Source: Meiothermus sp.
GTDB taxonomy: Bacteria > Deinococcota > Deinococci > Deinococcales > Thermaceae
DNA length: 64,000 bases
NCBI RefSeq assembly: GCF_026004115.1
Contig: NZ_BPIM01000001.1
Span: 2,212,501-2,276,500 of the forward strand
Direction: 5' to 3'
Under the pieces are notes generated by a model that had not been told where the DNA came from, did no database searches, and worked only from the letters and a program-made list of their open reading frames with translations. Shown piece after piece: positions 1 through 58,701 of the stretch. How positions within the stretch are numbered: the stretch's first letter is position 1; each line of letters begins with the position of its first letter. Position numbers and translations under genes: made by a program.

Positions 1-246
1 ATAATCATCCAAACCAAAGATCCCCCAGAGGCTATCTTTTTGAATCCTAGAGCACACCCCCTCCCGAACGGTCGGCGAAGAAAGCGTCTGCCTTCCAGGG
101 GGCGGTATCGCCCTCCGCTACGCGGATAACTTCCAAGGGGCGGTATCGCCCTCCGCTACGCGGATAACTTCCAAGGGGCGGTATCGCCCTCCGCTACGCG
201 GATAACTTCGGCCCGGTTAGTTCGCCGCCATCCGGCGCCGCTGGTA
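1..246 (+). mobile_element. MITE-like repeat family A, copy 1 (cut by window start)
   Basis: Non-coding repeat that matches the copies at 18774-19005 and 55097-55260. It starts inside the left hairpin loop, reads through CTTTTTGAATCCTAGAGCAC, then carries three head-to-tail 38-bp units beginning at 99, 137 and 175 (each with GGGGCGGTATCGCCC and CCGCTACGCGG). It ends in a degraded right-hand hairpin and CTGGTA at 241-246; the second hairpin arm present in the other copies is missing. No transposase is encoded. The sequence from 247 to 352 shows nothing recognisable. Confidence 0.75.
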
Positions 247-52802: not shown

Positions 52803-52868
52803 CATGACATGGTTGTCGGATTTTTTTCTAAAGCAAAAGGGCTTTTGATCAGGAACAGGAGGCAGGCC

Positions 52869-54998
52869 ATGTATGCAAGGTACGCAAGGTGGTTATTGGG
52901 TGGGGTGTTGTTGACGCTTCTGACGGCTTGCCCGGGGGGAGGGTCGGGCAGTATTGGGGGTACGGTCTCGCTGGGCTCCAGCATCACCGGGCAACGCCTT
53001 CAGATTGACTCCCAGCCGGGCAAACTCCGGCGCACGGGCGAGGCGCGCTTTGTGCCGGGCGAGGTGTTGGTGGAGTTTCGGGGAGGGGTGAGCCTCCAGT
53101 CGGTGAGCAGCCTGCGGCTTGAGGTGCAGGGTAGGCCGGTGGAACTCCAGCAGGTGCGGCCTCTGGGTCTGGCCAACACAGCCCTCTACCGCGCCGATTT
53201 GAGCGAGGCCGAGACACCAGCCTTGCTGATCGCCCTTCGCAGTCGTTCGGACGTGGCTTCCGCCGACCTGAACTGGCTCGAGCAGCCCTTGGCCGCGCCC
53301 AACGATACGCTTTACAACCTGCAGTGGCACTACCCTGCCATCAACCTGCCCCAGGCCTGGGATCGAACCACGGGCTCCAACAGCGTAGTGGTGGCCATCC
53401 TGGATACCGGGGTACTCTTCAACCCGAGTAACGCTGCCCAGTCGCACCCGGATATCGGCACTCGCTTGCTGCCCGGCTACGATATGGTTTCGCCCATCAG
53501 CGGCCCCAACCCCTTTGCCAACGCGGGCGACGGCAATGGCCGTGACCCCGACCCCTACGACGCAGGCGACGAGCAAAGCACCAGCTACCACGGTACGCAT
53601 GTGGGTGGAACCGTGGGGGCCGCGACCAACAACAACCTGGGTGTGGCCGGGGTAGACTGGACGGCCCGCCTCCTGCATGTGCGGGTGATAGGCCTGCTGG
53701 GGGCCACCGTGGCCGACCAGATCGATGCCATCCTGTGGGCCGCAGGCGAGCCGGTGCCCGGCCTGCCCGCCAACGCCAACCCGGCCAAGGTCATCAACAT
53801 GAGCCTGGGAGGCAAGGGCCCCTGCACCACCGCCCGCCAGAACGCCATTAATCTGGTCACAGGCAAGGGGGTGGTGGTGGTGGTGGCCGCCGGCAACGAA
53901 AACGACGATGCCTCGCTCTATAGCCCGGCCAGTTGCGCCAATGTGATTACCGTGGGGGCTACCGACTATGCGGGGGCCCGCGCGCCTTACTCCAACTACG
54001 GTCCCCGCGTGGATGTGATGGCCCCCGGGGGCGACGTCAGCAAAGACCTCAACAACGATAACTTTATGGATGGGGTGCTGAGTCTGGGGTTCGACGACCA
54101 GGCCCAGCAGTTCAACTACAAGTTCGAGAACGGTACCTCGATGGCCGCGCCCCACGTGGCGGGTGTGGTGGCCCTGATGAAGGCCCTCAGCCCCAGCCTC
54201 AATACCGCGCAGACCCTGCAGATCTTGAAATCCACGGCCAGACCCCTGAACGCCACCCAGTGCAACCGGCCCAGCGGCAACGACTGCGGCGCGGGTCTAG
54301 TTGATGCCAATGCGGCCCTGGCGGCGGTGCAGGGCGGCAGCACCTCGAGCTTTAGCCTGTCCACCGCCAATACCATCCTGACCGCTCAGCCAGGCGGCAG
54401 TGTGAATGTACCCATCACCATTAGCCGCAGCGGTGGATTCAGCGGAGCGGTGAGCCTGAGCCTGCAAGGTGCGCCCACCGGGGTGAGCGGGAGCTTCAAC
54501 CCGGCCAACACCACCTCGAACGACAGCACCCTGACCCTGAATGTAGCCGCCAGTGTCCCCAACGGAACCTATGCCCTGACGGTGCGGGGCACATCGGGCA
54601 GCACCTTTGCCAGCCTGCCGCTGAGCCTGAGGGTGGGGAGTGGCACCAGTGCCAGCGTGCAAGATACGGTGGTACTGGCCTGTTATGTAGCACAGGGCGA
54701 CTGCGATCCGAACCGCTCCAAGGCCATCCAGGTCAATCAGGGCGGTACCTCGGCCAGCTACACCATCGCCGATCTGACCGACGGCGACTATGCCGTGCTG
54801 GGCTGGAAAGACCTCAACAACAACGACGATGTAGACCGAGGCGACTACCTGGGCGCGGTGGTGGATCAAAGCGGCAACCTGGTTGCTGTGCGGCCCGGCA
54901 ACCTACAGGCCAACTTCCAGCTCGACGCGCTGAGCGACGACTTATCGCAGCTCGCCCCAGGGGTGTTGCGGAGCCTCGAGCAGTCTAAAATCAAGTAG
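52869..54998 (+). CDS. Subtilisin-like (S8) serine protease lipoprotein 3
   Basis: 709-residue exported protease. Lipoprotein signal YARWLLGGVLLTLLTACPGG, then an I9-like propeptide (VPGEVLVEFRGG, about 55-140). The S8 domain (about 150-470) has Asp in VAILDTGV, His in YHGTHVGG, Asn in AAGNEN and Ser in GTSMAAPH. The C-terminus has two beta domains and a final YAVLGWKDLNNNDDVDRGDY acidic calcium-like loop. AGGAGG fixes ATG 52869; an upstream in-frame start overlaps the promoter. A terminator follows at 55014. Confidence 0.94.
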   Translation: MYARYARWLLGGVLLTLLTACPGGGSGSIGGTVSLGSSITGQRLQIDSQPGKLRRTGEARFVPGEVLVEFRGGVSLQSVSSLRLEVQGRPVELQQVRPLGLANTALYRADLSEAETPALLIALRSRSDVASADLNWLEQPLAAPNDTLYNLQWHYPAINLPQAWDRTTGSNSVVVAILDTGVLFNPSNAAQSHPDIGTRLLPGYDMVSPISGPNPFANAGDGNGRDPDPYDAGDEQSTSYHGTHVGGTVGAATNNNLGVAGVDWTARLLHVRVIGLLGATVADQIDAILWAAGEPVPGLPANANPAKVINMSLGGKGPCTTARQNAINLVTGKGVVVVVAAGNENDDASLYSPASCANVITVGATDYAGARAPYSNYGPRVDVMAPGGDVSKDLNNDNFMDGVLSLGFDDQAQQFNYKFENGTSMAAPHVAGVVALMKALSPSLNTAQTLQILKSTARPLNATQCNRPSGNDCGAGLVDANAALAAVQGGSTSSFSLSTANTILTAQPGGSVNVPITISRSGGFSGAVSLSLQGAPTGVSGSFNPANTTSNDSTLTLNVAASVPNGTYALTVRGTSGSTFASLPLSLRVGSGTSASVQDTVVLACYVAQGDCDPNRSKAIQVNQGGTSASYTIADLTDGDYAVLGWKDLNNNDDVDRGDYLGAVVDQSGNLVAVRPGNLQANFQLDALSDDLSQLAPGVLRSLEQSKIK

Positions 54999-55096: not shown

Positions 55097-55260
55097 TACC
55101 AGATTCGGTTAGTTTGGCGCCGGATGGCGGCGAACTAACAGGGCCGAAGTTATCCGCGTAGCGGAGGGCGATACCGCCCCTTGGAAGGGAGTGCTCTAGG
55201 ATTCAAAAAGATAGCCTCTGGGGGTCTTTGGTTTGGATGATTATCTTTTTGAATCCGGTA
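55097..55260 (-). mobile_element. MITE-like repeat family A, copy 3 (complete)
   Basis: A 164-bp element bounded by TACCAGATTC (55097-55106) and GAATCCGGTA (55251-55260), inverted relative to copies 1 and 2. It holds one 38-bp unit, the GTTAGTT/AACTAAC hairpin and the GGATTCAAAAAGATA/TATCTTTTTGAATCC hairpin. TTA lies directly on each side (55094-55096 and 55261-55263), a probable 3-bp target duplication. It forms most of the leader of the gene at 55303. Confidence 0.82.
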
Positions 55261-55302
55261 TTAGCTGCACACTCCCCCAGAGGGTTGAGCAAGGAGGAAG
55301 TC

Positions 55303-57873
55303 ATGCAAGGGATGCGAAGGCTGGCTGTGGGTATTTTGCTGATGCTTGGTTTGTTAGGCTCCAATGCCCTGGCGGCTCGTGCTTTCTTCGACAGTAATTT
55401 TGTATCAGTCAGCACAATTTGCCCGGTGACCGGCAACATGGTGGTCGCAACACAGAATACTGTAGGCTACTTTACCGACCCTAACGAACCCTACCCCAAG
55501 ACAGGTGATTTGGCCTATGTGCGGGCCAGCTCTACCAATGTAAGTCCGTGTACCAACGATGCAGTCGGTTTTGATTTTTTTCTGCCCGAGGGAGCCAGCT
55601 TTGCCGTTAGCAACCAGCATCCGGTGTATTGCTACCTAATTAGGCTCTCGGACGGCTACACCATCGATGTTTCCAACAACCCCCAGGGTTTTCAGGGAAA
55701 TTGCTCTCAAACTCCACAAACTGCTGGAGCCGGGGGAACCGCTTATGGCTGGGCTGTACTTCCGTCGGGTTGGCAGTTTCAGGTGCGCGTGCCTGTGCAG
55801 TTCAACAAACAACTTTTGGGCCTTGCTGGCCCCAACACCCACCGCCTGAAGGCGACGGCCGTCACGACCTACGGTAATGCCACCCCAGAGCAGCCTGTGA
55901 CGATCTTCTATCGGGCTGACTTCCAGAATTTGCAGAGCAGCGGTATCACGACCAACTCGGCTACTTTGGGCGTTAACCTTTATAGCTATTATAAGGGCGG
56001 CCTGCTGTATGTGGATTACGGAACCACCAGCTCATTTGGCTCGAGCACCCCTTCCACCAGCGTGCCCACTGCCCTTAATTTCCCCAACGTCAGCGCCAAC
56101 CTTACGGGCTTGAGCCCCGGCACCACGTACTACTGGCGTTACCGCTTCGTCACCGATGCAGGAACTTTCAATAGTTCCACCCAGACCTTCACCACCTCGG
56201 CGGCTCCTACCTTTGCCCTTTCGGTCAACAAAAACGGTACGGGCTCGGGCACCGTGACGAGCAGTCCCTCAGGTATCAACTGCGGCGCTACCTGTTCGGG
56301 CAGCTTCACCCAGGGCGCTACGGTCACCCTAGCTGCTGCACCTGCGTCGGGCTCGGTATTTGCCGGGTGGAGTGGATCCGGCTGTAGCGGTACGGGTAGC
56401 TGTACGGTAACCATGAGCGCAGCTCAAAGCGTCACCGCTACCTTCAACACCGCGCCCGCCTCTACCTTCAACCTGACCGTCAACAAATCCGGCAGTGGCA
56501 GCGGTACCGTCACCAGCAACCCAACTGGCATCAACTGCGGTGCTACCTGCTCGGCTTCGTTCAACGCCGGGGCCTCGGTAACCCTAAGTGCAGCGGCGGC
56601 CAGCGGCGCTACCTTTGCCGGTTGGAGTGGGGCCTGCACGGGTACGGGTACCTGCACCGTCACCATGAATGCCGCCCAAACCGTGACCGCTACTTTCAAC
56701 ACCGCGCAAAGCTTCGGCACCCTCAATCTACAGGTGTCGGGCCTGCCCAGCGGCAACAGCGCCACCCTCACCATCACTGGTCCGGACGGCTTCAATCAAC
56801 AGCGGACCATTTTGACCGGCACCGGCCAATCGCTATCCGATGTGGTGACCGGTGTTTACACCGTCACGGCTCCCAGTGTGGTGGTGAGCGGTACTACCTA
56901 CAACCCCAACCCGGCCAGCCAGAACGTCACTGTGACCACCGGCAGTGCCACCGCCAGCGTGAACTACACCCAGGCACCTGCTGCCACCTTCGCGCTTTCG
57001 GTAAGTAAGGGTGGAACAGGGGGTGGAACCGTCAGCAGCAGCCCAGCAGGCATCAACTGTGGCGCGACCTGTTCCGCCAACTATAGCTCCGGGGCTAACG
57101 TGATCCTGAGCGCGGTTGCCGACACAGGCTCGAGCTTCGCCGGCTGGGGTGGGGCCTGTAGCGGTACGGGTACCTGCTCGGTCACGATGGACGCAGCCAG
57201 GTCGGTCATAGCTACCTTCAACACCGCACCCGCAGGCGCCTTGACCATCAGCGCAGCCAAGCCCGCCAACGCCCCCACCGATGCCACCCGCAACAAAGGC
57301 CAGAGCAGCGTCTTGATGCTGGCCTTCACCCTCAACCCCTCGCAGGCCACCCAGTTGCAAAACATCACCCTGCAGGCCAGCGGCAGCGGCAACGACAGCC
57401 TCGACCTCACGGTGGTCAAGCTGATCCGCGATGCCAACGCCAACGGCCAGATTGACAGCGGTGAAACCCCCATTGCCAGCGGCACCTTTAGCGCCGACAA
57501 TGGTACCCTTACCCTCACTTTGTCCACCCCGCTGGCCCTCGGTACGGGCGACAGCCAGTTCCTGGTGGCCGCCGATATCGCCAGCACCCTGGCGGCCCGT
57601 CCGGCGGTACTGAAGGCCCAGAGCCTCCCGGCCCTGCCCACGCCCTTGCTGCTTACCTTGCTGCCCCTGGTACTCCTGGGTGCGTGGCGGATGCGCTCGC
57701 TGCGGGTGGGACTCCTGGCCCTGGCCCTGAGCCTGGCCGCCTGCGGCGGCGGTCAGAGCACCACCCCGGTTAACAAGACCTATCAGATCAACCTGACCGC
57801 CGTGAGCGCCCAGGGCAGCCCCACCCTGAGCGGCCTGCCCATTACCGGTGCCACCATCACGGTGCAGAAATAA
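55303..57873 (+). CDS. Large secreted repeat protein (FN3, InlB-B-like repeats, odd C-terminus)
   Basis: 856-residue exported protein. Signal peptide RRLAVGILLMLGLLGSNALA, a novel N-terminal domain with several Cys (to about 215), then an FN3-like domain (about 225-310; LTGLSPGTTYYWRYRF). Three related repeats of about 80 residues (starting near 56209, 56461 and 56986), each with GINCGATC, GWSG/GWGG and TVTM.AA..V.ATFN, resemble divergent InlB B-repeats. A SGLP-type beta domain lies between repeats 2 and 3. The end has a hydrophobic helix, RMRSLR, a second hydrophobic stretch with lipobox-like LSLAAC, and a 40-residue tail. AGGAGG fixes ATG 55303. Expected under operator A2. Confidence 0.85.
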   Translation: MQGMRRLAVGILLMLGLLGSNALAARAFFDSNFVSVSTICPVTGNMVVATQNTVGYFTDPNEPYPKTGDLAYVRASSTNVSPCTNDAVGFDFFLPEGASFAVSNQHPVYCYLIRLSDGYTIDVSNNPQGFQGNCSQTPQTAGAGGTAYGWAVLPSGWQFQVRVPVQFNKQLLGLAGPNTHRLKATAVTTYGNATPEQPVTIFYRADFQNLQSSGITTNSATLGVNLYSYYKGGLLYVDYGTTSSFGSSTPSTSVPTALNFPNVSANLTGLSPGTTYYWRYRFVTDAGTFNSSTQTFTTSAAPTFALSVNKNGTGSGTVTSSPSGINCGATCSGSFTQGATVTLAAAPASGSVFAGWSGSGCSGTGSCTVTMSAAQSVTATFNTAPASTFNLTVNKSGSGSGTVTSNPTGINCGATCSASFNAGASVTLSAAAASGATFAGWSGACTGTGTCTVTMNAAQTVTATFNTAQSFGTLNLQVSGLPSGNSATLTITGPDGFNQQRTILTGTGQSLSDVVTGVYTVTAPSVVVSGTTYNPNPASQNVTVTTGSATASVNYTQAPAATFALSVSKGGTGGGTVSSSPAGINCGATCSANYSSGANVILSAVADTGSSFAGWGGACSGTGTCSVTMDAARSVIATFNTAPAGALTISAAKPANAPTDATRNKGQSSVLMLAFTLNPSQATQLQNITLQASGSGNDSLDLTVVKLIRDANANGQIDSGETPIASGTFSADNGTLTLTLSTPLALGTGDSQFLVAADIASTLAARPAVLKAQSLPALPTPLLLTLLPLVLLGAWRMRSLRVGLLALALSLAACGGGQSTTPVNKTYQINLTAVSAQGSPTLSGLPITGATITVQK

Positions 57874-57939: not shown

Positions 57940-58701
57940 ATGAGTCAGACTCGAAAAGCCCTGGCTTTCCTCGCCACCCTGGCAGCCCTGAGCCCTGTCC
58001 TGGCCCAGTGGGTTGCGCCAGGCACCACCTTCGGCGCACCCAGCGGCATGAGCTATTCCCAGGCCATGGCCTACGCGAGCGTTCAGACGAATACAGCCGC
58101 AGTTCGGCGGGCCCAGGGAGAACTGAACCGCATCAACAGCCTCAACCGCAACAACCCCAGCGCCCAGGCCACCGCCCGCACCCAGGCCCAGACCGCCCCC
58201 CAGACCCGCTTCCGTCCCGGCCCACAGCGGCTGATGGTGAGTGGGTTTGTCCGCAGCCTGAGCCGCGACCCCGCCACCGTCCGCGAGATGACTATGGCTT
58301 TCAATGAAGCCTTCAAGGCCTTCGAGGCCGAGGCCAAGCGGCTGGGTAGGCCCAACAACGTGGCCATGGCTTTCACCTATCTAGTGGGGGTCTGCTACAT
58401 GGTGTACTACGGTGAGGAGCCCAGCGAGACCGCACTCATGAACCTTCAGGCCAATACCGATGCGGCCTTTGGGAGGTCGGCGGCCTTCATGGCGCTGTCG
58501 GCCCAGGATCGCCAGAAGCTCTACGAGACCTTTGTGCTGATGGCTACCCTCCCGCTTTTGGGCTACACGGTGGCGGTGCAGGAAAGCGACCCGAAACTCC
58601 TGGAGACCTACCGCGAAATTGCGGGGGTGGCCCTCGAGAGCGCCCTGGGGGTGCGCCCCGACCGTCTGAAGTTCACGGCAACGGGCCTCGAGCTGCGCTA
58701 A
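57940..58701 (+). CDS. Secreted helical hypothetical protein
   Basis: 253-residue protein with signal peptide KALAFLATLAALSPVLAQ. A Gln/Asn/Thr-rich linker (residues about 45-95) leads to a helical domain (MAFNEAFKAFEAEAKRLGRPNNVAMAFTYLVGVCYMVYYGEE; LYETFVLMATLPLLGYTVAVQ). No family named with confidence and no catalytic motif. It starts 66 nt after the large repeat protein with GGAAGGGAG before the ATG, so co-transcription from operator A2 is likely. Confidence 0.8.
   Translation: MSQTRKALAFLATLAALSPVLAQWVAPGTTFGAPSGMSYSQAMAYASVQTNTAAVRRAQGELNRINSLNRNNPSAQATARTQAQTAPQTRFRPGPQRLMVSGFVRSLSRDPATVREMTMAFNEAFKAFEAEAKRLGRPNNVAMAFTYLVGVCYMVYYGEEPSETALMNLQANTDAAFGRSAAFMALSAQDRQKLYETFVLMATLPLLGYTVAVQESDPKLLETYREIAGVALESALGVRPDRLKFTATGLELR

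Follow-up and report, generated by a model that had tools for sequence, protein, structure and literature searches.

The surface repeat protein encoded in the window (the whole stretch of 64,000 nucleotides of Meiothermus DNA that was analysed) raises the question of why a chain with an N-terminal export signal should carry, close to its other end, a second hydrophobic segment and a cysteine arranged like the start of a lipoprotein. The open reading frame extends on the + strand from a TTG at 55228 to 57873, and translation likely starts at the ATG at 55312, so the gene was taken as 55312..57873 (+), with the stop codon at 57871-57873. The N-terminus MRRLAVGILLMLGLLGSNALA was recognised by eye as a Sec-type signal. 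A Pfam search placed after it a weak fn3-like stretch and then three InlB-type repeats, and the protein ends with a split terminal domain and an internal lipoprotein signal.

The N-part of the terminal beta-sandwich domain (57238..57582, +) comprises 115 residues and all strands except the last two. It is followed by the linker STLAARPAVLKAQSLPAL (57583..57636, +) and by TM1, PTPLLLTLLPLVLLGAW, a putative stop-transfer helix (57637..57687, +) that coincides with helix 135-151 of the structural model described below. The segment RMRSLR (57688..57705, +) would be both a basic cytoplasmic loop and the n-region of the internal signal. TM2, VGLLALALSLAA (57706..57741, +; model helix 159-168), is the predicted h-region of this type II signal and ends with LSLAA. 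The lipobox cysteine (57742..57744, +) precedes 42 residues reaching 57870, namely the post-Cys linker GGGQSTTPVN (57745..57774, +) and the tail KTYQINLTAVSAQGSPTLSGLPITGATITVQK (57775..57870, +), whose homologues are the two closing strands of uninterrupted domain copies and the mature part of lipoproteins encoded by split genes. The internal signal sits behind 800 residues and the stop-transfer helix. Its LSLAAC conforms to a lipobox, with a residue of the G/A/S set before the invariant cysteine, after basic residues and a hydrophobic stretch.

Two neighbouring genes were also inspected. The upstream S8 peptidase gene (52809-54998 of the window, +) starts with its own lipoprotein-like N-terminal signal, LLTLLTACPGGG; the peptidase has a complete, uninterrupted copy of the Ig-like domain discussed below, and the end of this domain matches the NCBIfam model NF058595 at profile positions 83-112. 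The downstream neighbour (57940-58701, +) encodes a DUF6683 protein (E 1.5e-88).

Orthologues reaching the last residue were found in 10 other genomes of the genus and in one genome of the sister genus (G020). All 17 rows of alignment A1, which came from 13 genomes, retained the layout, and the cysteine was invariant (17/17); four genomes contributed rows from another kind of host protein (L067-L070), and G018 from a third (L021). When the phylum was searched with the A1 profile, 52 of 111 genomes gave matches, and in 18 of these, judged by reading the rows, the match extended as far as the tail; the remaining matches were partial and lay in other proteins. Other families of the order are among the 18 (L096, L112, L113, L097, L098, L099 and L036). 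Beyond Deinococcota, the fused layout was detected in one genome of the gammaproteobacterial class (L147, G152) and at three Planctomycetota loci.

The degree of selection was estimated from 10 orthologues (45 pairs). The segment RMRSLR-TM2-Cys had the lowest dN/dS of all segments (0.100), followed by the tail strands (0.116), while the preceding domain gave 0.156, the post-Cys linker 0.163, the linker before TM1 0.181 and TM1 itself 0.338. By this measure, both the tail and the signal-bearing half of the hairpin are conserved no less strongly than the domain. The order TM1-RMRSLR-TM2-LAAC-tail claimed for the C-terminal end in the preliminary description was thus confirmed as in frame, conserved and under purifying selection.

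Several features varied among the fused forms. Compared with the window gene, the open frames of orthologues L014, L015, L016 and L008 ranged from 624 to 903 residues, because the number of InlB-type repeats varied and the terminal module was fixed. Of the 28 fused sequences read, 25 have G, A or S immediately ahead of the cysteine; the exceptions were T in L162 and Q in L017 and L018. The latter two (in G003 and G005) have AGQC in place of a canonical lipobox and retain the tail, and they may serve to test the need for cutting. A frame of 237 residues at L036/L117 (G052:C10:97681-97905, - strand) ends with a tail that is preceded by a well-formed hairpin and lipobox; the part upstream of the hairpin is not the domain, and the preceding reading frame may be broken. 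The fused hairpin-lipobox forms of Planctomycetota (L161:1360-2094:+, L162:1366-2100:+ and L169:1183-1917:-) have a different tail (FDP.. AVVTL.. PLASGTLSVSN), which the combined tail profile described below failed to recognise (AUC 0.60).

Homology of the tail to the last strands of uninterrupted domains

The preliminary description had noted about 40 polar residues after the cysteine. This stretch is real; what was missed is that it corresponds to the last two beta-strands of the domain located before TM1. The correspondence emerged from a scan with a profile of the N-part alone, which took no account of the downstream sequence and detected the domain in other phyla as well. Among the Planctomycetota genomes searched, 20 of 119 contained the domain (E <= 1e-10). 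Most of these copies were devoid of the hairpin: a strand ending with FLV or LLV plus a few residues was followed by a short turn and then by a continuation such as GQTFQARVTAISATGENHSGLPTAAVAGLRIHAPAITV, the counterpart of which in the window is KTYQINLTAVSAQGSPTLSGLPITGATITV. A further search gave six matching genomes among 369, of which three carried a split (L146), a fused (L147) and an uninterrupted (L150) form; the other three loci (L148, L149 and L151), with matches confined to the front of the profile, were excluded from the counts. No Pfam family matched the terminal domain of the window protein, L077, L079 or L080.

It was observed separately that in L120 and L125 the uninterrupted domain is followed by a short Cys motif, one TM and an Arg-rich end, an arrangement that looked MYXO-CTERM-like by eye, so members of one domain family have different anchors. 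When plasmids were searched, neither the module nor an acidobacterial tail sequence gave a match.

The likeness of the tails was evaluated with profiles built from three sets of sequences, i.e., 76 continuations of uninterrupted copies, 14 fused tails and 9 split-gene tails, and each sequence was compared with 50 shuffles of itself. The continuations were drawn from a subset of the matching loci, plus L078-L080, L150, L193 and L195; 80 were collected, and three fused ones and one shorter than 45 residues were removed. Many of the 76 are copies within the same proteins and are thus non-independent. The fused profile was made from 14 tails chosen out of 25 from Deinococcota and gammaproteobacteria.

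With the continuation profile, 13 of the 14 fused tails reached or exceeded the 95% shuffle mark and 12 surpassed all 50 shuffles (AUC 0.963). All nine split-gene lipoproteins scored above all shuffles with the fused-tail profile, and in the reverse direction the split-tail profile placed 13 of 14 fused tails above all shuffles, with L099 failing (0.5 bits). The continuation profile was less effective with split tails (4/9 at the 95% mark, AUC 0.80), and 41 of 76 continuations reached this mark with the combined tail profile (AUC 0.824). Six controls, which were neighbouring stretches of the same beta-rich proteins, gave AUC values of 0.48-0.56. The tail of the window protein was aligned to positions 3-46 of the 56 positions of the continuation profile; therefore, it begins where the N-part ends. 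Because the tail matches the last two strands and uninterrupted copies run straight into these strands, it may be concluded that the hairpin and lipobox are inserted in the domain.

Structure prediction was consistent with this arrangement. The uninterrupted copy L079 was predicted to be a beta-sandwich (mean pLDDT 75.5) with its last strand at 151-155, and the best VIA-align 2 matches of this model were N-terminal domains of Bacteroidetes sialidases (Z 10.6, 142 residues), with the next kind of match at 7.7. The window module was modelled with AlphaFold2 from alignment A7, in which the uninterrupted rows were cut before the tail and the row of the L077 lipoprotein was also handled by cutting or leaving out. 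Two helices (135-151 and 159-168) appeared in the model, along with strands at 180-190 and 208-210. Its comparison with the sialidase N-terminal domains gave Z 12.7 and rmsd 2.7 for 140 aligned residues over model range 1..210. Since the N-part has only 115 residues, some twenty or more of the aligned residues lie beyond it, and the simplest reading is that the tail strands replace the last strands of the sandwich in this model. The tail was packed on the domain across the hairpin with a pLDDT of only about 52; for this reason, the model supports the packing, short of proving it.

Other structural searches should be mentioned. The first Foldseek match of the model of L079:2896-3378 was TTHA1873 of Thermus thermophilus, a protein of unknown function (7wwo, E 3.5e-4, TM 0.35). 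Comparison of the domain profile with the sequences of solved structures yielded only calcium-site and designed-protein matches, which have little meaning.

Split genes and a second interrupted domain

At L077, the large protein stopped exactly where the N-part ends (...DSDYLVTYDY, stop); an open reading frame overlapping that stop encoded MTTSIKTTRSGG...STVMFVAAC, a Pro-rich linker and KTFQTSLDEV...GFSGATATMP. The available part of the large protein contained TSP_3 and FG-GAP repeats. In the gammaproteobacterial order to which L077 belongs, the domain was found in 11 of 396 genomes (E <= 1e-6), and a search of the relatives of G642 added no genome to these 11. Nine of the 11 had the split form, in which the large protein lacks the last strands and an adjacent small lipoprotein gene supplies them (L077/L146, L183, L184, L185, L186, L189, L190, L192 and L194). 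The question of whether the last 60 residues occur elsewhere as a separate gene was thus answered positively, directly behind the large gene in 9/11 domain-bearing genomes. In this deeper sense, the earlier idea of two joined genes has some substance, as the last ~55 residues do exist as a lipoprotein gene of their own in this order.

The split lipoproteins were 73-92 residues long, all nine with a true N-terminal lipoprotein signal, and the point at which the domain was cut was identical in 9/9 pairs. The large protein of the split form has no membrane helix at its end; its open frame comprised approximately 2,200-2,800 residues in seven of the nine cases and 521 in G686, and it was cut by the contig end in G642. 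Four of the lipoprotein genes overlapped the large gene by exactly 11 nt, and the other five started 4, 13, 17, 41 and 103 nt past it. A programmed frameshift between the split genes was also considered; it is unlikely because five of the nine pairs do not overlap. The two remaining genomes of the 11 (L187 and L193) had a complete domain at the protein end, and such a lipoprotein was not seen in the 420 bases behind it.

A similar break was found in another domain. The model NF058595 of NCBIfam release 20 is named 'lipo-invert putative C-terminal anchoring domain' (invert_tail). The window protein scored 23.8 bits against it, below the curated cut-off of 37, and the cut-off was passed in none of the 101 genomes of relatives; four proteins on a Granulicella plasmid passed it. 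In one of these four, L141, uninterrupted Ig-like copies (...TLTGTVAGTYSVVVTGISGTLSHTATISVTVS) precede a last copy that is split at the same point by a hairpin and lipobox (...LTITTTT, hairpin, GCGGG..., MNYNVSVSGTSGSITTATTVVVTV). When acidobacterial tails were compared with the end of the L141 domain, 4 of 5 scored above nearly all of 300 shuffles, and L143 was not recognised. Tail-only matches to NF058595 in Deinococcota were ends of uninterrupted Ig-like domains in all 14 cases inspected. The same device thus breaks two domain families, apparently unrelated in sequence, ahead of their final strand pair.

Proposed mechanism of anchoring and its rivals

The reading that we consider probable, with some reserve, is that a membrane hairpin separates the last two strands of the terminal beta-sandwich from the rest of it, that the second half of this hairpin acts as a type II signal peptide, and that the lipidated strand pair completes the domain. 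The N-terminal signal would export the chain until TM1 halts the transfer. RMRSLR would remain in the cytoplasm, and TM2 would re-enter the membrane and end at the lipobox. Lgt, the presence of which is assumed, would then lipidate the cysteine, and LspA, assumed likewise, would probably cut before it, releasing a lipidated peptide of 43 residues. The strands of this peptide may complete the domain of the main chain and thereby tie it non-covalently by strand complementation; the membrane that finally holds the lipid could be the inner or the outer one. In the two-gene form, an equivalent lipidated strand pair would be made by the separate gene, and it would be the only tie there.

Several observations run counter to this mechanism. 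TM1 of the fused form would by itself keep the main chain in the inner membrane, and a further, non-covalent tie makes sense only if TM1 is removed; no exosortase was detected in any of the 18 module-bearing genomes. In addition, the Q that precedes the cysteine in L017 and L018 fits a lipobox poorly. The low pLDDT of the tail, the incomplete recognition of split tails and continuations across profiles, the failure of L099 with the split-tail profile and the unrecognised fused tails of Planctomycetota also count against it.

The main rival to cutting and docking is an arrangement in which Lgt modifies the cysteine, LspA does not cut, and the domain closes round the covalently joined hairpin, which then bears an extra lipid. 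The sequence evidence for a split domain is common to both readings, and a continuous chain needs no docking step. LspA may refuse the lipobox of L017 and L018; however, most lipoboxes look canonical, and, to judge by the two-gene form, a chain of its own can supply the strand pair. This uncut arrangement is possible but was judged unlikely.

The preliminary description had proposed, as its second alternative, a C-terminal hairpin in which an internal cysteine is used, and as regards layout this proposal holds, being kept throughout A1 with the cysteine invariant. A plain hairpin, in which TM1 and TM2 serve as the anchor, the cysteine stays unlipidated and the tail is a periplasmic stub, was considered very improbable. 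Two hydrophobic stretches with a basic loop do make a valid hairpin, and the model contains the two corresponding helices (135-151 and 159-168). However, the cysteine stands in a lipobox context in 17/17 rows, dN/dS is lowest of all segments at RMRSLR-TM2-Cys, and at the corresponding position the nine split-gene proteins start with a genuine lipoprotein signal.

It seems highly improbable that the tail is a remnant of an unrelated lipoprotein and that both its likeness to the last strands and the gene pairs are a coincidence of generic beta-strand sequence. The control stretches, taken from the same beta-rich proteins, stayed at an AUC of 0.48-0.56; the cut point of the domain was identical in all nine split pairs; and a second domain family has the same break. 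These findings are set against the shortness of the tails, the commonness of beta-strand patterns and the weak scores of some members in the cross-profiles.

An accident, i.e., a recent fusion of two genes by loss of a stop codon or a sequencing frameshift, was suggested solely in the preliminary description and was rejected as having a negligible probability, since the layout is conserved in the genus and phylum with low dN/dS, and the frame is continuous in every orthologue reaching the end and in several other host proteins. Homologues without the second hydrophobic stretch, which the preliminary description had named as a refutation, were only distant uninterrupted copies with the tail joined directly to the domain.

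Returning to cutting and docking, it appears an even question whether this is a general bacterial principle of anchoring, in which a lipid on a detached strand pair holds a surface protein non-covalently through domain completion, in at least two domain families and in both one-gene and adjacent two-gene forms. In the open-access literature searched, no paper named lipo-invert, none of the papers listed mentioned an internal lipobox, and searches on a second or C-terminal lipobox and on related anchors returned nothing on this layout. As far as could be seen, this kind of anchor was previously known by name only; what is added here is that the interrupted domain is read as split, that a second domain family is involved and that a two-gene form exists. 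The anchor thereby gains a concrete and testable mechanism, in which the part after the lipid would be the missing piece of the domain, and one-gene and two-gene solutions to the same problem are linked. If true, the mechanism would also show how a lipid can come to hold a folded secreted protein after its export, with no sortase involved.

Comparison with known anchoring systems

The N-terminal beta-sandwich of Bacteroidetes sialidases (e.g., PDB 7qy9 and 6myv) has the same fold as the terminal domain of the window protein; it is uninterrupted and has ~12% sequence identity, so the likeness is one of shared fold and is not claimed as family membership.

The window protein resembles the lipo-invert members L139-L142 in having a TM, a basic loop, a TM and a lipobox-like cysteine near the C-terminus. 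According to our own reading of the members, which is no published criterion, the tail is like the closing strand pair of the domain before it, both in the window kind and in the members except L143. The host domains differ, as the acidobacterial members have an Ig-like repeat and the window protein has a sialidase-N-like domain. NF058595 is known here by its model name, and as far as this name tells, the two-gene form is absent from the model. The window protein behaves like a lipo-invert protein, yet it is not filed as a member of NF058595, being below the cut-off and having another domain.

A sorting-type membrane segment in the middle of a protein is described by NCBIfam NF033207, midcut-by-XrtH. 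L161 matched it weakly (14.7 bits, cut-off 45), and the window did not match it. Exosortase-dependent removal of TM1 was rejected as a candidate: exosortases were the family searched for, and none of the 18 module-bearing genomes contained a member (PF09721, 0/18).

The MYXO-CTERM/myxosortase system is also a C-terminal device with an invariant cysteine that is predicted to be lipidated, as in the window protein; in that system (PMC11980579), the order is cysteine, TM and Arg-rich end, and the protein retains the lipid at its own C-terminus. The order in the window protein is instead TM, basic loop, TM, cysteine and domain strands, which differs from the cysteine, single TM and Arg-rich end that define MYXO-CTERM.

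Lipoproteins with an N-terminal type II signal share with the window protein the basic stretch, the hydrophobic stretch, the lipobox cysteine and a polar or Gly-rich linker. Their signal is located at the N-terminus, as it is in the nine split-gene lipoproteins, whereas in the window protein it is internal.

In fimbriae, donor-strand complementation builds polymers or caps subunits. A beta-sandwich is completed there by strands of another chain or segment, Mfa4 (PMC4789730) being an example. In the anchor proposed here from sequence and model, by contrast, the donor strands would bear a lipid and would themselves act as the anchor.
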